Of a stretch of DNA of 5,109 bases, positions 1 through 5,109 are shown piece after piece. Every line of letters starts with the position of its first letter. Within the stretch, counting starts at the first letter, position 1. The position numbers were made by a program, and so were the translations under genes. The stretch is taken from NCBI GenBank assembly GCA_002418705.1, contig DIEQ01000126.1:1-5109 (forward strand), in the 5' to 3' direction. The notes beneath the pieces were generated by a model. It searched no databases. It had not been told where the DNA came from and worked only from the letters and a program-made list of their open reading frames with translations. Source of the DNA: Mageeibacillus sp. UBA5770 (GTDB taxonomy: Bacteria; Bacillota_A; Clostridia; Saccharofermentanales; Saccharofermentanaceae).

Positions 1-1065
1 CCGATCGGGCCGGTCGTTATGATCGACACCCCCGGCCTTGATGATGAAGGTGAACTCGGCCAGCTGCGTATCGAACGTGCGCGCGCCGTACTCGAAAAAA
101 CAGATGCCGCTATCGTAGCTGTAGACAGCCAGACAGAAACAGGTGATTTTGAACGCGGTATCATCGCACAGATAAAAGAACGCAAAATCCCGGCGATCCT
201 TGTCCTCAATAAAGCTGACCTTGCCAGTATGGACACCGACCTGCATGCTCAGGCAATAGCCTTGCAAAAAGAACTCAAGGTCCCTGTCGTTATTGCCTCC
301 GGTGTCACCGGAGAAGGCATTGAAGATTTAAAACAGGCCCTGATCCGGGTTCTGCCGGAAGATGAAGACAAATTCCATCTCGTCGGCGACCTGCTGTCAC
401 CCTCCGACATCGTCGTCCTCGTTGTCCCCATCGACAAAGCAGCGCCAAAGGGACGGCTCATCCTGCCTCAGCAGCAGACCATCCGCGATATTCTCGAGGC
501 CGATGCAATGGCGATCATCACCAAGGAATACGAGCTGAGAGATACACTCGCGTCCCTGTCCAAAAAGCCCCGCCTGGTCATCACCGACTCCCAGGTATTT
601 GCCAAAGTATCGGCGGATACACCCAGAGACATCCCGCTTACCTCCTTCTCAATCCTTTTCGCGCGCTACAAAGGCGACCTTCCCGTACTGGTCCGCGGAG
701 CCAGAACCATCGACACCCTGCAGGATGGTGACAAAATCCTCATCGCCGAAGGCTGCACGCATCATCGCCAGTGCGATGATATCGGAACCGTCAAGCTGCC
801 CCGCTGGATCCGCCAGCACACCGGAAAAAACATAGAATTCGTCTTCACCAGCGGCGGCACCTACCCGCACAACCTTGCAGACTTCCGCATGATCGTCCAC
901 TGCGGCGCCTGTATGCTCAACCGCCGCGAAATGCACTACAGAATCCAGCAGGCCGGGAAAGCCGGCATTCCAATCGCTAATTACGGAGTCCTCATCGCCC
1001 ACATGCAGGGTATTCTCCCGCGCGTGCTCGAACCCTTCCCGCTTGCCGCAATGGAATTGGAATGA
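1..1065 (+). CDS. hydF: [FeFe]-hydrogenase maturation GTPase HydF (5'-partial)
   Basis: HydF is the GTPase and iron-sulfur scaffold on which the 2Fe subcluster of the [FeFe]-hydrogenase H-cluster is assembled, with HydE and HydG, before transfer to HydA; it is cytoplasmic. The frame is open from base 1, so 354 codons are visible. Family members are about 400 residues, so roughly 50-60 N-terminal residues, including the Walker A P-loop, lie upstream. Numbered from the window edge: G3 motif DTPG at 9-12, G4 NKAD at 70-73, and a G5-like SGVTGEG at 100-106. The C-terminal cluster domain carries the HydF signature CxH...HCxxC (C252, H254, H300, C301, C304), with C252, C301 and C304 as the expected [4Fe-4S] ligands. 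The ATG at 19 lies inside the GTPase domain just before DTPG and is not the start. All visible motifs are intact. The TGA stop (1063-1065) lies inside the outer arm of repeat copy A. Confidence 0.97.
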   Translation, partial: PIGPVVMIDTPGLDDEGELGQLRIERARAVLEKTDAAIVAVDSQTETGDFERGIIAQIKERKIPAILVLNKADLASMDTDLHAQAIALQKELKVPVVIASGVTGEGIEDLKQALIRVLPEDEDKFHLVGDLLSPSDIVVLVVPIDKAAPKGRLILPQQQTIRDILEADAMAIITKEYELRDTLASLSKKPRLVITDSQVFAKVSADTPRDIPLTSFSILFARYKGDLPVLVRGARTIDTLQDGDKILIAEGCTHHRQCDDIGTVKLPRWIRQHTGKNIEFVFTSGGTYPHNLADFRMIVHCGACMLNRREMHYRIQQAGKAGIPIANYGVLIAHMQGILPRVLEPFPLAAMELE

Positions 1066-1144
1066 GGCGCATTCTTCTTTCGCTCCAGGTCCTCGGATCG
1101 CTGTGCGATCCTGTGGAAGTCGCTTAAGCCGCTTGTGTCTCATT
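1061..1144 (+). repeat. Structured stop-codon-linked repeat, copy A
   Basis: The core at 1083-1122 matches copy B at 36 of 40 positions. It contains GGATCGC (1095-1101), loop TGT, and GCGATCC (1105-1111). TCC (1090-1092) and GGA (1115-1117) can pair outside this hairpin across an asymmetric TC/TGT internal loop. Outer arms 1061-1071 and 1134-1144 pair over 11 positions (9 Watson-Crick, 2 G-T). The hydF stop codon is inside the left arm. The four differences from copy B include two of the three loop bases, whereas the 7-bp stem is unchanged. The outer stem is the weakest of the three copies. Function is unknown; a 3'-end RNA structure is the simplest reading. Confidence 0.7.
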
Positions 1145-1178
1145 TTGTTGGCACTCTGCGAGTGCAAGGAAATTTTTT
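1143..1178 (+). terminator. Probable intrinsic terminator of hydF
   Basis: GCACTC (1151-1156), loop TGC, and GAGTGC (1160-1165) form a perfect 6-bp stem. Flanking TT/AA and TTT/AAA pairs, with small mismatches, can extend it to 1143-1172. Six T residues follow at 1173-1178. If only the inner stem forms, seven bases separate it from the T-run, which would be weak. The first bases overlap the right arm of repeat copy A, so the two structures may compete. Confidence 0.55.
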
Positions 1179-1214
1179 GCAAGAAGAAAGATATCTCGAT
1201 CACGTCAAATAATA

Positions 1215-1242
1215 TTGACTTATAATTTTCGAGTGCTACAAT
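1215..1242 (+). promoter_or_regulatory. Sigma-70-type promoter with extended -10
   Basis: TTGACT (1215-1220) matches the -35 consensus at 5 of 6 bases. A 16-bp spacer leads to TACAAT (1237-1242), also 5 of 6. The TG at 1234-1235 gives an extended -10 (TGC-TACAAT). Transcription would start near 1249. A separate perfect TATAAT at 1221-1226 has only a poor -35 at the right distance and is less likely. This is the only clear promoter seen between hydF and the two small downstream reading frames. Confidence 0.7.
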
Positions 1243-1248
1243 TACTAT

Positions 1249-1339
1249 TTAGAAGGTGCGGACAACAATGTGTCTCCTCTCGAAGATGTATGTATGGCTG
1301 TCAGCGTCTTGTAGGCAATCCTACAGGACGCTTTATTTT
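1249..1339 (+). ncRNA. Candidate small RNA or leader/attenuator RNA
   Basis: The stretch from the promoter start to the terminator gives a transcript of about 90 bases with no convincing protein gene. Internal pairing is possible: AG-GG-GACA (1251-1264) with TGTC-CC-CT (1271-1280), with small internal loops. Alternatively 1258-1264 can pair with 1299-1305, taking three bases of the terminator's left arm. It could be a free sRNA or a 5' leader controlling the reading frame that starts at 1418. I do not recognise a known riboswitch consensus. A 28-codon ATG frame (1268-1354), with AGAAGG upstream at 1251-1256, could be a leader peptide but shows no codon run typical of attenuators. The 5' end is inferred from the promoter only. 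Confidence 0.45.
1303..1339 (+). terminator. Strong intrinsic terminator
   Basis: Arms 1303-1315 and 1320-1332 pair over all 13 positions, with one T-G wobble (1309/1326), around the loop CAAT. The tail TTATTTT follows at 1333-1339. There is no T-run on the other strand, so it acts only on plus-strand transcripts. Lying about 60 bases after the promoter and 80 before the next ribosome binding site, it either ends a small RNA or works as an attenuator. Confidence 0.85.
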
Positions 1340-1342
1340 AGC

Positions 1343-1373
1343 AATTCGGTCTGATATGCATCAGCCGCGAATT
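1343..1373 (+). other. Imperfect hairpin between terminator and next gene
   Basis: AATTCG (1343-1348) pairs with CGAATT (1368-1373). CTGAT (1351-1355) pairs with ATCAG (1360-1364) around the loop ATGC. One bulge and one mismatch separate the two stems. A short T-run (1381-1385) follows eight bases later, too far for a standard terminator. It may be a second weak stop, a leader structure, or chance. Confidence 0.35.
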
Positions 1374-1404
1374 CTTCCGGTTTTTCCAAAAATCTTCCTT
1401 CTAT

Positions 1405-1409
1405 GGAGG
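1405..1409 (+). promoter_or_regulatory. Ribosome binding site that selects GTG 1418
   Basis: GGAGG at 1405-1409 lies eight bases before GTG 1418-1420, a standard spacing. The in-frame ATG at 1403 overlaps this site and has no Shine-Dalgarno sequence of its own, so GTG is the preferred start. Confidence 0.65.
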
Positions 1410-1417
1410 CGATTATT

Positions 1418-1615
1418 GTGCAGTCAACAGACACGATCAACAAATTGGCTTGCCGCCTTGGAGTAAACAGTGAAACACCCAACATCGAATTGGCTGTCGA
1501 ATTGTGTAAAAGGCAGGATGCACGTGCAATCAAGGAGATCCTCGACGGACTGGAAAGCAAAGATTCAGCTATTGCCAATGACTGCATCAAAGGGGGATCA
1601 CATGACCGATCTTGA
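1418..1615 (+). pseudogene. Truncated HEAT-type protein, N-terminal fragment
   Basis: The 65-codon frame starts at GTG behind a clear GGAGG site and ends at TGA 1613-1615, inside the next gene (14-base overlap). It is predicted to be helical. The part from 'NIELAVELC' through 'IKEILDGL' to 'ANDCIK' resembles, from memory, the first helices of a larger family of hypothetical proteins with HEAT-like repeats, in which 'NDCIK' continues into further repeats. Here it breaks off into GGSHDRS, which is the next gene's ribosome binding site and start read in another frame. The simplest reading is a deletion that joined the gene's 5' end to the DUF4440 leader at about 1588-1592. A native small protein translationally coupled to its neighbour is the alternative. 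Function is unknown. Confidence 0.45.
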
Positions 1616-1973
1616 AACAACAATTCTCTCCCTCGAAAAATCGCTCCTGCGACCGGAGGTGCGCAATTCTGCCGAGAAACTGGCCGAATTATTGAGTGAG
1701 TCTTTTTATGAGTTTGGAAGTTCAGGAAATCTATATTACTACCATGTAGGGGACGTGTTTGACGTAAGCCCAGCACAAGAAAGCGATTGGGAAATCGTCG
1801 ATTTTTCACTGCTTCCCCACGGCGAAGACAGCGTTCTTGCTACATATAAAGGGATTAAACACACAGAACCTGACGAAACCAAAAAATTCACCCTGCGCTG
1901 CTCACTCTGGGAAAAAGAATCCGGCTCCTGGAAAATCAAGTTCCACCAGGGAGCAGTCATGGAACAAGTTTAA
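1602..1973 (+). CDS. DUF4440 / NTF2-like fold protein
   Basis: This is a 123-residue protein of the DUF4440 branch of the NTF2-like (SnoaL-type cone) fold. Members are small soluble proteins, often of unknown role, with a hydrophobic pocket. Visible signs: an N-terminal helix pair (residues 1-33), the 'FYEFGSSG' element (35-42), 'WEIVDFSLL' (63-71), 'VLATYKG' (78-84), and the closing strands 'LRCSLWEKESGSWKIKFHQGA' (98-118). The end corresponds to the family's RSSxW...W...FHQG pattern, with one R-S-S position changed to R-C-S. ATG 1602 is chosen because AGGGGG (1590-1595) lies six bases upstream and because residues before it in this frame are out-of-frame sequence of the preceding fragment. 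Length is normal for the family. It overlaps the upstream fragment by 14 bases, so translation is probably coupled. The stop is followed at once by repeat copy B. No substrate can be inferred. Confidence 0.85.
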   Translation: MTDLETTILSLEKSLLRPEVRNSAEKLAELLSESFYEFGSSGNLYYYHVGDVFDVSPAQESDWEIVDFSLLPHGEDSVLATYKGIKHTEPDETKKFTLRCSLWEKESGSWKIKFHQGAVMEQV

Positions 1974-2056
1974 AGACCGTATATATTTTTCTTGCTCCAC
2001 GTCCTCGGATCGCTAAGCGATCCTGCGGAAGTCGCGCGAAAAACATATGCGGTCTT
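1973..2056 (+). repeat. Structured stop-codon-linked repeat, copy B
   Basis: The core at 1995-2034 matches copy A at 36 of 40 bases. It has GGATCGC (2007-2013), loop TAA, and GCGATCC (2017-2023), with TCC (2002-2004) and GGA (2027-2029) paired outside an asymmetric TC/TGC loop. Outer arms 1973-1991 and 2038-2056 pair over 19 positions: 17 Watson-Crick, one T-G and one mismatch. The left arm starts on the last base of the DUF4440 stop codon. A T-rich tail (TCTTCTT) includes the end of the right arm, as in an intrinsic terminator. The arm sequence is unrelated to the arms of copies A and C. Confidence 0.8.
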
Positions 2057-2064
2057 CTTGGTTA

Positions 2065-2109
2065 GGCGCTTCGCGCCAAGGTAATACTACCTCAGCACCC
2101 GTAGGGTGC
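2065..2109. repeat. Cluster of three small perfect hairpins between convergent genes
   Basis: Three palindromes follow each other. GGCGC/GCGCC is at 2065-2077 with loop TTC. AGGTA/TACCT is at 2079-2092 with loop ATAC. GCACCC/GGGTGC is at 2095-2109 with loop GTA. They fill the space between copies B and C. None has a T-run directly after it. They may help block read-through between the converging dufs/psu transcripts or be binding sites; nothing in the sequence decides. Confidence 0.6.
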
Positions 2110-2117
2110 CTTATAAA

Positions 2118-2195
2118 GAAGAAGCATATCTGTTGAACGACCTTCCGCAGGGCGCCAGCCCGAGGACACGGGGAGAGAAACAGAAATGCTTCTTC
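2118..2195 (-). repeat. Structured stop-codon-linked repeat, copy C (inverted)
   Basis: On the minus strand the core (2175 to 2138) keeps CTCC, GTCCTC, TGCGGAAG and TCG of copies A and B but has a different, shorter hairpin: GGGC (2161-2158), loop TGGC, GCCC (2153-2150). The TCC/GGA pair (2166-2164 with 2146-2144) and the asymmetric TC/TGC loop are unchanged. Outer arms 2118-2134 and 2179-2195 pair at 16 of 17 positions. The psuK stop codon (2194-2196) overlaps the arm, and a CTTCTTTA tail ends the structure. Hairpin and arms changed in sequence while keeping pairing, which supports a selected structure. Confidence 0.75.
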
Positions 2196-3147
2196 AAAAA
2201 CTTGCTCCCTTTTTCCCGACTATTTTCGATGCCAGTTCGTTGCCTTCTTGCAGCCAGGCCTGCGGGTCTGCGTTTTTCAGCATTTCTGCAAGAAAGCCCG
2301 CATTGAAGGCATCGCCCGCACCGGTTGTATCTATGGCTGTCACTTTTTGAGCAGGTTCCCGGTATATCCCGTTTTCGGAATATGAGGCACCAAAAGGAGA
2401 CGTGAAGCCTTCCCGTATTGCTGCAAGGGATCCTTCCGAACCCATTTTTAAGGCAATACAGGGCACTTTCAGCTGGAGGGTTTTAATGGATGCCGGGATG
2501 TCCCGTACATTTGTTATCGTCTGAAGCTCGGTTTTATTAGGCAGGATGATGTCGGCGGCATTCAGCATTTCTGCTAGAATTTCCGGTCCTATCTGCCCGA
2601 TGACCGGAGACGGGTCCAGTGCGACAAGACCTCCGGCAAGCTTGGTTTCTTTTACGGCCTCAAGGGATAGGGCTGCCTGCCCGGCGTTCATCAGGCAGTA
2701 GCCTGACAGGAGAAGAATCTTTGTGTTTTGGAGAACCTGCCTGAGTGACGGTGTATATTCCAGCGGTATGGCAGAAGCACCGCGATAGGACAGCATTGTC
2801 CGTTCGCTGTTTTTGTCAATTATGGAGAGGACATATCCTGTACTTTCCCCGTATTGGATGCAGGATGTATCAATGCCTGCGGACTGCATTTTTTCTTCGA
2901 TCCAGCGACCGTTTTCATCCATGCCGACACGTCCGCAAAAAGCTGTTTTCACGTTCAGCATTCCAAGCGCAAGTGCTGTGTTTGATGCCGATCCGCCGGT
3001 ACTTTTGCCGGACATAGAGATCATTTCATCTCCGCCGACAGGCGGCATCCTGTCTACCCAGTACTGATAGTCGATAAGCGCATCGCCGATGACGGTCACA
3101 TCAATTGCCTTATGTGCCCCGCCCGGAATATCTATCATATTTTCCAT
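2194..3147 (-). CDS. psuK: Pseudouridine kinase, PfkB family
   Basis: This 317-residue sugar kinase of the PfkB/ribokinase family is complete. Pseudouridine kinase phosphorylates pseudouridine at the 5' hydroxyl with ATP. Visible signs: the opening strand 'VTVIGDALID' (17-26), PfkB signature 1 around GGSASN (51-56), 'LPNKTE' (202-207), 'KMGSEGS' (234-240), and signature 2 DTTGAGDAFNAGF (273-285) with the anion-hole glycines and catalytic base Asp279. Length is typical. The fold alone does not fix the substrate; the assignment rests on its position 46 bases downstream of psuG in the same direction, the usual psuG-psuK pairing. Start ATG (3145-3147) has AGGAGA (3157-3162) nine bases upstream. 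No key residue is missing. A different nucleoside or sugar kinase is possible but less likely. Its stop is embedded in repeat copy C. Confidence 0.88.
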   Translation of the reverse strand: MENMIDIPGGAHKAIDVTVIGDALIDYQYWVDRMPPVGGDEMISMSGKSTGGSASNTALALGMLNVKTAFCGRVGMDENGRWIEEKMQSAGIDTSCIQYGESTGYVLSIIDKNSERTMLSYRGASAIPLEYTPSLRQVLQNTKILLLSGYCLMNAGQAALSLEAVKETKLAGGLVALDPSPVIGQIGPEILAEMLNAADIILPNKTELQTITNVRDIPASIKTLQLKVPCIALKMGSEGSLAAIREGFTSPFGASYSENGIYREPAQKVTAIDTTGAGDAFNAGFLAEMLKNADPQAWLQEGNELASKIVGKKGASF

Positions 3148-3163
3148 CCCTGCTATTCTCCTC

Positions 3164-3183
3164 TGCTGCGTTTATGCGCAGCA
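3164..3183 (-). other. Intercistronic hairpin in psuG-psuK
   Basis: TGCTGCG (3164-3170) and CGCAGCA (3177-3183) form a 7-bp stem with a six-base loop, directly upstream of the psuK ribosome binding site. There is no T-run after it on the minus strand, so it is not a terminator. It could set the psuG:psuK ratio through RNA stability or processing, or keep the binding site open. Role inferred only. Confidence 0.5.
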
Positions 3184-3193
3184 AACACATGAA

Positions 3194-4123
3194 TTATTGG
3201 CTGAGGTCAGCAAGTTCAAGTGCAATTTTAGCTGCCAGGGCAGCGTTGTTATATACGAGCTGAATGTTGGAGGCAAGGCTTTCTCCGCCGGTTATTTTCT
3301 GAATTTTATCAAGTAAAAACGGAGTTGTCTCTTTGCCTTTGATGCCAAGCCGGACGGCCTCATCGATTGCTTCATCAATTTTAGAGTTGATAAAAGATGC
3401 TTCCATCGAGAATTTCTCGGGAATCGGATTGGTTACAAGCATGCCGCCCTTCATTCCGAGATCTTCCTTTGCTTTAAAAACTTCGGCGATTTCAAGAGGT
3501 GTGTCCATTCGATAATCCACTGAGAACCCACTGTTTCTGACATAGAAGGCAGGGAGTTCTGCCGTTTTGTAACCGATTACGCATACACCTTTGGTCTCTA
3601 AGTATTCCAGTGTCAGGCCAAGGTCCAGAATCGATTTGGCCCCGGCACAAACGACGAGGACCGGCGTCTGTGCAAGCTCGTCAAGGTCGGCCGAGATGTC
3701 CATTGTTGTCTGGGCACCGCGGTGGACACCGCCGATGCCTCCCGTTGCAAAAACGGATATTCCGGCAAGAGCCGCGATAATCATCGTCGCTGCAACCGTT
3801 GTTGCACCGTCTTCTTTTCGGGCAGCCAGGACGGGCAGGTCACGCCGGCTTGCTTTGGTAACCGCAAGGCCCTTTTGTCCGAGGTATGTGATTTCCTCAG
3901 TGGAAAGTCCGGCTTTGAGTTTTCCTTTAATGATGGCAATCGTTGCCGGAACGGCACCGTTATCGCGGATAACTTTTTCAACATGAAGTGCTGTCTCTAC
4001 ATTTTTCGGATAAGGCATGCCGTGGGATATGATCGTTGACTCAAGGGCAACGACGGGTTTACCTGCTGCCAGTGCATCTTTAACTTCCTGTGATATTTCA
4101 AGGTATTTTGAAAGATTATTCAT
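3194..4123 (-). CDS. psuG: Pseudouridine-5'-phosphate glycosidase
   Basis: PsuG cleaves the C-C glycosidic bond of pseudouridine 5'-phosphate, giving uracil and ribose 5-phosphate through a lysine Schiff-base intermediate with a divalent metal. The 309-residue product is full length. Residues I recall from the E. coli enzyme (E31, K93, H137, D149, K166, N289) appear at a constant offset of three: E28 in ALEST, K90 in VTK, H134 in GGVHRGA, D146 in DISADL, K163 in CAGAKS and N286 in ESLASN. The unbroken offset and intact motifs make the call firm. A Met ten codons upstream (4151-4153) is also in frame, but AGGAGA (4130-4135) lies between the two and six bases before ATG 4121-4123, so the shorter form is used. 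It is the first gene of a two-gene operon with psuK. No transporter or psu regulator is visible. Confidence 0.96.
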   Translation of the reverse strand: MNNLSKYLEISQEVKDALAAGKPVVALESTIISHGMPYPKNVETALHVEKVIRDNGAVPATIAIIKGKLKAGLSTEEITYLGQKGLAVTKASRRDLPVLAARKEDGATTVAATMIIAALAGISVFATGGIGGVHRGAQTTMDISADLDELAQTPVLVVCAGAKSILDLGLTLEYLETKGVCVIGYKTAELPAFYVRNSGFSVDYRMDTPLEIAEVFKAKEDLGMKGGMLVTNPIPEKFSMEASFINSKIDEAIDEAVRLGIKGKETTPFLLDKIQKITGGESLASNIQLVYNNAALAAKIALELADLSQ

Positions 4124-4129
4124 ATTGCA

Positions 4130-4135
4130 TCTCCT
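4130..4135 (-). promoter_or_regulatory. psuG ribosome binding site (decides the start)
   Basis: On the minus strand AGGAGA is followed by TGCAAT and then ATG at 4123-4121. It lies downstream of the alternative Met at 4153-4151, which has no comparable site, so translation should begin at 4123. Confidence 0.85.
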
Positions 4136-4174
4136 CTTATAAACATTGAGCAAATACTGCTGGTAAGTGATCTT

Positions 4175-4203
4175 ATTATATATCTCTGCGATTTGTTTGA
4201 CAC
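4175..4203 (-). promoter_or_regulatory. psuG-psuK promoter
   Basis: On the minus strand GTGTCA (4203-4198, 4 of 6 matches to TTGACA) is followed by a 17-bp spacer and a perfect TATAAT (4180-4175). Transcription would start near 4168, giving a leader of about 45 bases before the psuG ATG. No clear operator palindrome overlaps it. It lies at the truncated 5' edge of the GyrI-like remnant. Confidence 0.7.
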
Positions 4204-4470
4204 AAAAAGTCGGACACGCAAAATAAGTCTGTGCTATTCTCTACTCACAAGAGTAACGGAGAAATCGGGCAGGAGATTATGGCTGCCTGGAACCGCTTTT
4301 CCCGGTGGCTGTCGGACAGCAAGTATACTAACGGTCAGCATCAGTGGCTTGAAGAGCATCTGGGCTTTGATGAGGATGCCAATCATGTCGGAGGAGTAGA
4401 TCTTTACATGCCGATTTCAGAACGGCCTGCAGCTACACCTGATTATACTCTTTGCGCAGAAGCCCTGTAA
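4201..4470 (+). pseudogene. Remnant of a GyrI/AraC-type effector-binding domain protein (C-terminal half)
   Basis: The frame is open from just after a TGA at 4198-4200 to TAA at 4468-4470. It reads as the second half of a GyrI-like (SOUL/Rob-type) ligand-binding domain: 'SNGEIGQEIMAAWNRFSRWL', then 'SKY', 'WLEEHLGF', and the closing strand 'GGVDLYMPI' that ends these domains. The first half of the domain is absent, and upstream sequence is the psuG promoter and psuG itself on the other strand. GTG 4231 could start a 79-residue product, but no ribosome binding site precedes it. Its 3' end overlaps the converging class IV gene by 38 bases. I read it as a decayed, 5'-deleted gene. A small intact effector-binding protein is possible. 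Family assignment is from pattern memory and is uncertain. Confidence 0.45.
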
Positions 4471-5109
4471 TACGCCCCTGTTCTTTCGACTTAAACCAGA
4501 TAATGCCGGTCAATTCGTCTTTAATGATGGTGACCGGCATTATCCCCATTACTGAGTTTGTCACGAAAACCTCATCTGCGGCGCTCAGGTATTCAAGGGT
4601 TAATTCCCCTTCGACTACAGTAACTCCCAGTGCTTTTGCCCGCACAACAACAAATTCACGGATGATGCCCGGAAGGATTCCGCAGGCAAGGTGAGGCGTA
4701 TACAGCGTGTTGCCTTTTGTAAAGAATATATTGCATTTTGCGGTCTCGGCCACTTGCTTTTTGCTGTTCAGGAACAAGACGTCGTCATACCCTTTGGCAG
4801 CTGCGTCCCGCAGGGCAAGGAAATTCTCTGCATAATTACCCGTTTTATGTCCTGTCAGGGGCGATGTCTCATTTCGGATCATTTTCGAGACATTTACCAT
4901 ATATCCAGTTGCCTTTTGTCCGGGATCAGCGTAATCGCGGACCGAGAAATGGAGCGAAGGCGGTATGTCTGCGCCATTGCCGAAGCTTATGGTTGCGCGC
5001 AGGATTTTCCCGCTTAGTCCCTGACTGTGAATATATTCCAGAACCGATGTCTTCCACTCCTTTTTGTCGAACGGCAGTATATATCCCAGAGCTCCGGCCG
5101 ATCGAAAAA
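4433..5109 (-). CDS. Class IV PLP-dependent aminotransferase/lyase, PabC-like (5'-partial)
   Basis: The frame is open to the window edge and gives 224 residues; family members are about 270-290, so some 50-65 N-terminal residues lie outside. Fold type IV PLP enzymes include 4-amino-4-deoxychorismate lyase (PabC, p-aminobenzoate for folate), branched-chain aminotransferase and D-amino-acid aminotransferase. Numbered from the edge: 'GKILRATISFGNG' (33-45), 'SPLTGHKTGNY' (82-92) with PLP lysine K88, 'GYDDVLFLN' (106-114), 'ETAKCNIFF' (121-129) with conserved E121 and N126, 'TPHLACGILPGI' (137-148), and 'ADEVFVTNSVMGIMPV' near the C-terminus. Met 70 (codon ending at 4898) is internal, lying between the family's N-terminal domain and the lysine motif, so it is not the start. 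The short length and overall pattern favour PabC, but substrate cannot be settled here. No clear terminator follows the TAG stop, so some read-through into psuG is possible. Confidence 0.85.
   Translation of the reverse strand, partial: FRSAGALGYILPFDKKEWKTSVLEYIHSQGLSGKILRATISFGNGADIPPSLHFSVRDYADPGQKATGYMVNVSKMIRNETSPLTGHKTGNYAENFLALRDAAAKGYDDVLFLNSKKQVAETAKCNIFFTKGNTLYTPHLACGILPGIIREFVVVRAKALGVTVVEGELTLEYLSAADEVFVTNSVMGIMPVTIIKDELTGIIWFKSKEQGRITGLLRKEYNQV

Follow-up and report, generated by a model that had tools for sequence, protein, structure and literature searches.

A family of long hairpins with a conserved asymmetric head, mostly behind genes, in uncultured Bacillota

Here we describe a family of long hairpins that share a conserved, asymmetric head, three copies of which (A, B and C) lie in a 5,109-nucleotide (nt) stretch of DNA from Mageeibacillus sp. 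UBA5770 (GenBank assembly GCA_002418705.1, contig DIEQ01000126.1, positions 1–5,109 of the forward strand; hereafter the window). Judged by sequence comparison and folding, the headed hairpins are a real family, and 116 distinct copies of it are catalogued here, drawn from the window and 27 genomes. We hold, with modest confidence, that they are 3′-end hairpins that end transcripts or protect or process 3′ ends; most likely they would be elements of the terminator type with a head that something in the cell reads. The main rival is that they are mobile DNA hairpins. The three copies and their parts are placed as follows.

1061–1144, + strand: copy A, a hairpin 3′ of hydF, whose 5′ arm includes the stop codon TGA (1063–1065)
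1083–1119, + strand: head of copy A (CTCC..GTCCTCG-hairpin-CTGTGGAAG), by pattern match
1151–1165, + strand: small second hairpin behind copy A (GCACTC-TGC-GAGTGC), by eye, followed by six T (1173–1178)
1973–2056, + strand: copy B, a hairpin 3′ of a DUF4440 gene, whose first base is the last base of the stop codon
1995–2031, + strand: head of copy B, by pattern match
2065–2077, + strand: small second hairpin behind copy B (GGCGC-TTC-GCGCC), from the sequence and an alignment with genome G004
2118–2195, − strand: copy C, a hairpin 3′ of a pfkB-family gene (stop codon 2196–2194)
2142–2175, − strand: head of copy C, by pattern match
2095–2109, − strand: small second hairpin behind copy C (GCACCC-TAC-GGGTGC), by eye

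The pattern CTCCN{2,5}GTCCTCGGN{6,20}CTGYGGAAG, which was derived from copies A, B and C themselves, matches the window exactly three times (1083–1119 and 1995–2031 on the + strand, 2142–2175 on the − strand) and never matched in 200 dinucleotide shuffles of the window. Folded as single RNA strands, the copies gave z-scores of −3.4 (A), −7.0 (B) and −4.0 (C), each beating all 200 of its own shuffles, and A and B are 86% identical over 49 nt. Pattern and folding thus bear out an earlier reading made from the letters alone (the sequence-only reading), which had proposed three copies with a shared core and paired arms, each placed at the stop codon of the preceding gene (hydF, DUF4440 and pfkB) and in that gene's direction. 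Every copy is followed within 10 bases by its small second hairpin, and a six-T run is present only behind that of A. The second hairpin at 2065–2077 recurs behind a related copy in G004 and therefore possibly belongs to the element in this lineage.

The family extends to other genomes. A gapped pattern found 21 stretches in genome contigs, of which seven (L010, L012, L014 and L019–L022) were kept because their arms pair around the core: four from Clostridiales bacterium Firm_13 (G001), two from CSSed165cm Clostridiales bins and one from Firmicutes bacterium UBA5774. The other 14 (Streptomyces and others) were discarded by eye as unpaired or coding-like, as were the viral matches L001–L003. 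Two stricter patterns, tailored to the subtypes seen in G176 and related genomes, had no match in viral contigs, and copy B had no match in phage and plasmid collections. A covariance model built from nine copies (R1) found further copies in all four genomes that had given the kept stretches and, at an E-value of 0.05, matched 27 of the 38 genomes in the family of G001, itself included (these matches were not individually checked). In the family of G004 it matched 6 of 148 genomes; four were accepted (G004, G008, G075 and G109, the G075 copy, L071, despite failing the hairpin filter used for the copy list) and two (G085 and G111) were judged to be chance. A second model built from 23 copies (R2) gave, at an E-value of 0.2, 47 matches in G176, 34 in G161, and 19 each in G182 and G171; as only 150 candidates were scored per genome, some copies may have been missed in these counts, and weak matches may be chance. 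Matches were also found in 19 of 78 genomes in the order of G176 (this centre and G002 included), in 6 of 23 in the family of G003 (G003 and G002 included), and in 2 of 398 in a shallow sample of the phylum (the centre G176 and the already known G008; E 0.0001, 13 candidates scored per genome). The scans of the family of G001 and of the order of G176 gave no match in G155, G157, G165, G175, G179 and G183, relatives of the element-rich G176, G161, G182, G171 and G154. The distribution is thus patchy, and the proposal of a structured element with further copies in relatives holds. The list of 116 copies derives from 117 paired-arm copies in the fetched loci, from which one (L140 +49) was removed as false; loci were assigned to genomes by hand, and window copy A, whose arm score falls below the cut of 14, is not among the 116.

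The conserved part is the head, TCC-TC-[hairpin]-TGY-GGA. Head counts among the 116 copies were partly predetermined by the forms that the search expression permitted. The first pair of the closing hairpin is G-C in 115 of them, and the second is G-C in 91, A-T in 13, C-G in 9, T-A in 2 and G-T in 1. The loop beneath the hairpin reads TC/TGC in 111 copies, TC/TGT in 4 and TT/TGC in 1, and the helix beneath the loop TCC/GGA in 110, TAC/GTA in 5 and TCC/GTA in 1. Two extra copies, in L143 and L155, have C..G replacing the first G-C pair, and at what is apparently the same site in G161 (L152) and G182 (L099) a TCC/GGA–TAC/GTA double change is among the differences. Below the helix lies a second mismatched loop, with subtypes distinguished by eye (GC-TGG/ATC-GC; GTGCTG/GGCAC; and, in the window's lineage, GC-TCnnnG/AGTC-GC), in which TC recurs on both strands. 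This conservation of the tip suggests that some cell component recognises the head, and we infer that the head may bind a protein or ligand. A likeness to domain IV of the signal recognition particle (SRP) RNA was dropped as too weak. It is highly improbable that these are ordinary terminators with tips that are alike through coincidence or a preference for stable tips. Plain terminators are indeed plentiful in the same genomes; however, more than 12 nearly fixed head bases and conserved unpaired loops recur across the window and 27 genomes, matches are rare in the phylum sample (2 of 398 genomes), and conserved mismatched loops contradict such an origin.

The arms, by contrast with the conserved head, differ between subfamilies while pairing within each copy is retained. 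For a set of 84 copies (81 from G176, G161 and G182 together with the window's three; 13 rows marked 'weak hairpin', for example in L145 and L143, were retained), the median arm score without G·U credit was 31.7, compared with 7.4 when the 3′ flanks were shuffled (95th percentile 14.2, maximum 21.3). Copy A has the weakest arms of the window's three and does not stand out without G·U credit (5.3, against the shuffled median of all copies), so its outer helix depends partly on G·U pairs. In alignment A4 (15 sequences), 80.8% of cells are paired and 55 cells are double changes, compared with 21.6 in shuffles; in alignment A5 (13 sequences), the corresponding values are 75.5%, 29 and 15.8. None of 500 shuffles equalled either alignment, and every slid version of A4 scores below the structure itself. 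That pairing is kept while the arms vary, a claim for which the window's three copies alone were insufficient, is thereby upheld on other copies.

Position relative to genes was analysed for 81 copies in 60 regions of G176, G161 and G182, for which 100 matches are listed; genes were called with our own codon model, in which one miscall was detected (L153 5608). Among the 80 classifiable copies, 60 lie behind a same-strand gene, with a median distance of 52 nt between stop codon and core centre, and 56 of these 60 are within 160 nt of the gene. The stop codon falls inside the 5′ arm in 14 of 56 copies, within 10 nt of it in 17, at 11–30 nt in 18 and further away in 7. By the orientation of their neighbours, 35 copies are ++, 24 +− (convergent), 16 −− and 3 −+ (divergent), with three open at one side; none of the 81 lies inside a called gene. 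A tRNA gene stands directly upstream of the element in five loci (L153, L162, L184, L187 and L189). The placement seen in the window, just 3′ of stop codons and in the gene's direction, is thus the prevailing one in these relatives, and a stable hairpin behind a gene and in its direction is what we found in 60 of 80 copies and, by folding z-scores, in the window; the other 20 do not fit. At L153:5608–5668 (G161), a gene runs into the element, acquiring a new stop codon, TAG, from the head and a C-terminal tail that differs from that of relatives.

One tRNA-Arg gene provides a direct comparison with plain terminators. In the genus of G161, folding yields a hairpin 0–12 nt after the CCA of this gene in all 21 genomes. 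The headed form, with arms ACCCCTTTGCTC..GAGCAAAGGGG, is present in G161, G164 (where the loop is AGC in place of TGC) and G649, and a plain terminator, ACTCCGCG..CGCGGAGTTTTTT, stands behind the same gene in others, for example G178 and G171. G182 carries GTCCTGCGGAC, maybe a tip-less head; G646, G169, G186, G174 and G184 have other large loops; and the remaining 12 of the 21 hairpins resemble plain terminators by eye. Neighbouring-gene identity to G161 is 89% for G182, 87% for G164 and 83% for G649 (the next genome has 81%), which is most simply read as a single gain followed by decay in G182. Across the 21 genomes, no pair has identical arms with and without the head. As far as sequence and predicted folding tell, headed hairpins at this gene take the place of the ordinary intrinsic terminators of relatives.

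T-runs point in part the same way. Within 8–50 nt behind the head, 59 of the 84 copies have a run of at least four T and 42 a run of at least five, compared with 15.1% and 5.2% of random stretches of equal length. Among the 59 ++ and +− copies, the T-run is longer than the mirrored A-run in 28 and shorter in 12 (p = 0.017). If these are terminator-type elements, the RNA would fold into the hairpin, and the stem and U-tract would halt RNA polymerase. A putative trans-acting factor (a protein or a polymerase component) would bind the head and, once bound, would tune termination or 3′-end stability of scattered genes and tRNAs, and copies would on occasion also be duplicated and relocated whole, as happens with other palindromic repeats of bacteria.

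Several results weigh against transcript ending as the role of the whole family. T-run polarity comes mainly from convergent sites: the T-run is the longer in 15 and the shorter in 3 of the 24 +− copies, whereas the corresponding values are 13 and 9 for the 35 ++ copies and 3 and 6 for the 16 −− copies. In the window, the longest T-runs at 8–50 nt behind the head are 4 (A), 2 (B) and 3 (C), and most displayed copies of G001–G003 have none, although one in L059 has six; termination is therefore not uniform. Of 17 genomes tested, 16 have Rho, which leaves no special need for strong intrinsic terminators and tells against a missing Rho as their cause. Twenty of the 80 classifiable copies are called behind an opposite-strand gene, 16 of them opposed to both neighbours; for seven of these 16 −− copies the gap also contains an inverted partner copy, and one other is a gene miscall. 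The arms also show no clear G·U preference, which selection on RNA only would favour: mismatches are 36 G·T and 27 A·C in the 84 copies, and 50 G·T and 66 A·C in the 116. Forty-six plain terminator-like hairpins of the same loci have 33 G·T and 22 A·C (Fisher p = 0.049 against the 116), a control of only 55 such mismatches, which makes the comparison merely suggestive on RNA versus DNA. The missing preference would be accounted for if the palindrome were recognised as DNA or repaired by template switching. Finally, sliding A5 by one column (+1) gives more double-change cells than the structure (37 versus 29) and a higher covariation score (0.302 versus 0.266), an excess that may be due to one-base bulges. 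The proposal of a terminator-like 3′-end element therefore stands in part: the element occupies terminator sites of relatives and is enriched in T-runs, but window copies have at most four T, a quarter of the classifiable copies lie behind opposite-strand genes, and no clear G·U excess is seen.

Together with the sharing of one element between unrelated genes, the weak T-runs of the window, the missing G·U preference and the opposite-strand copies keep a mobile DNA repeat alive as a rival. Over 108 aligned bases (window about 1971–2080), arms and second hairpin included, copy B agrees with a copy in G004 at 91 (84%), and the differences include two paired changes, one from G-C to C-G and one from T·G to G-C. 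The genes upstream are unrelated (DUF4440 in the window, DUF4130 in G004), and the only two gene stretches that match between window and G004 do so at 68 and 69% identity. Such sharing of a whole element, arms included, between unrelated genes of two genomes has the look of a repeat that disperses, and it tells against the terminator interpretation offered by the sequence-only reading. Arms and the sequence after them are also common to several places in Firm_13; the 5′ arm and head are tandemly repeated in G001 (L055, L056 and L065) and in L113, L151 and L154; and some copies form inverted pairs or local clusters. Copy B, the arm sharing and the tandem repeats indicate that whole elements can spread. 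In L113, L151 and L154, two to four tandem 5′ arms, some with a partial head, precede a single 3′ arm; these may reflect hairpin slippage or a step in the origin of the element.

It is possible, though we consider it less than probable, that the hairpins are mobile palindromic DNA repeats of the repetitive extragenic palindromic (REP), bacterial interspersed mosaic element (BIME) or miniature inverted-repeat transposable element (MITE) kind in a broad sense. The head would then be a DNA signal for a putative enzyme, the placement behind genes a tolerated insertion, and terminator activity a by-product. The dispersal of copy B and the Firm_13 arms, the tandem units, the inverted pairs and clusters, the lack of a clear G·U preference and the patchy distribution all favour such a repeat. 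However, the transposase family Y1_Tnp (PF01797), the only one searched for, was detected in just one of seven element-bearing genomes, mostly drafts, and not in G176 or G161, the genomes with 47 and 34 matches. Moreover, most copies follow the orientation of the upstream gene; insertion alone would not explain copies at the terminator position of tRNA-Arg; and some sites are seemingly common to related species (L152/L099, L157/L166 and L077/L078), so that copies also persist. A doubtful but inclusive reading would join the two: the head would bind a putative factor that unites dozens of unrelated 3′ ends, tRNA genes included, in one post-transcriptional or termination regulon, and the hairpin would also spread as a DNA element, its arms copied from the 3′ end of the host gene or made uniform through template switching; a selfish palindrome would in this way have become the clade's own class of terminator.

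A further alternative is some other structured RNA, such as an RNase processing site, a 3′-end ligand sensor or the end of 3′-derived small RNAs, in which the head is functional and termination incidental. The head surpasses what a terminator needs and is kept in copies without T-runs, as this alternative would have it, but no Rfam match reaches the gathering score and the upstream genes surveyed (HydF, DUF4440 and PfkB, and DUF4130 at one G004 copy) are dissimilar; we regard it as unlikely. The Rfam search that the sequence-only reading had called for gave no match in the window at an E-value of 1 and, in 11 loci, none at the gathering score: MAT2A_A overlaps the element in L068 with 29.4 bits (gathering score 40), and three other weak matches in the same loci all lie outside elements.

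Returning to terminator-type elements as the preferred reading, the headed hairpins can be compared with known systems. Like intrinsic (Rho-independent) terminators, they stand behind stop codons or tRNAs, have a paired stem, carry a T-run in about half of the sampled copies and interchange with plain terminators at one tRNA site. Unlike them, they have long stems (5′ arm median about 30 nt) and a conserved asymmetric head, and T-runs are weak or absent in part of the family, the window included; terminator tips are normally regarded as sequence-free. Terminators built from DNA uptake sequences consist of inverted copies of one short word, which is frequent in coding sequence too; they were reportedly described in Neisseria and Haemophilus by Kingsford in 2007. 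The headed hairpins likewise hold a short conserved sequence within many otherwise differing terminators, but their head has polarity and conserved mismatches, and headed copies occur in called genes in 0 of 81 cases, in a search that covered whole heads only. Integron attC sites have conserved ends (R boxes) and a variable middle; the headed hairpins reverse this, with a conserved middle and variable ends, and were set aside as attC members.

DNA-uptake-sequence terminators are mentioned in passages of PMC2267715. Passages of PMC8040213 report structured RNA candidates from the human microbiome, of which 250 of 3161 are palindromic and 230 of those predicted terminators; compared by description, our elements resemble these in being palindromic, terminator-like and derived from comparative genomics. 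Proteins that bind terminator hairpins are known (ProQ/FinO; PMC9674577 and PMC12001967), and a fixed sequence head like that of the headed hairpins goes unmentioned in the passages covered of those two papers. REP sequences with REP-associated tyrosine transposases (RAYTs), as portrayed in passages of PMC3733652 and PMC12306157, are likewise dispersed intergenic palindromes with an imperfect hairpin, inverted pairs and arrays. Here, by contrast, the tip is conserved, the arms are variable and orientation mostly follows the gene; with Y1_Tnp unfound in 6 of 7 genomes, mostly drafts, we did not assign the hairpins to REP/RAYT systems. No description of headed hairpins was found in the parts of the open-access literature covered, which include passages of PMC12306157, PMC8040213, PMC3733652 and PMC2267715; that text was not searched by sequence string, and absence from print is unproven. 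A tip conserved across several uncultured Bacillota families on dissimilar stems points to a specific reader of 3′ ends, one covariance model would offer a simple handle for finding the targets of this putative reader, and a genome may here have obtained terminators from a palindrome that disperses.

The window holds the following genes and open frames.

1–1065, + strand: HydF gene (hydF; TIGR03918 match), stop codon TGA at 1063–1065
1403–1615, + strand: short open frame without a Pfam match
about 1602–1973, + strand: DUF4440 gene, stop codon TAA at 1971–1973
2194–3147, − strand: pfkB-family kinase gene, stop codon TGA at 2196–2194
about 3194–4123, − strand: indigoidine-synthase-A/PsuG-like gene
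4231–4470, + strand: small frame, weakly Cass2-like (Pfam E 0.00027, below cut-off)
4433–5107, − strand: class IV aminotransferase gene

The sub-threshold frame at 4231–4470, resembling Cass2 (an integron-associated effector-binding protein), is possibly a gene remnant. Other repeats were also seen. Firm_13 (G001) carries a further repeated hairpin, TTACCTCCAA..TTGGAGGTAA, beside the elements of L054 and L055, arranged in tandem with a unit length of about 80 bases. At L153:2787–3006, G161 has what is apparently an unrelated repeat, up to about 200 bases long and with 13 other matches in that genome at 70–81% identity. In the window, a perfect inverted repeat of 14 bases, with arms separated by 18 bases, lies at 4499–4544 in the 3′ part of the aminotransferase gene.

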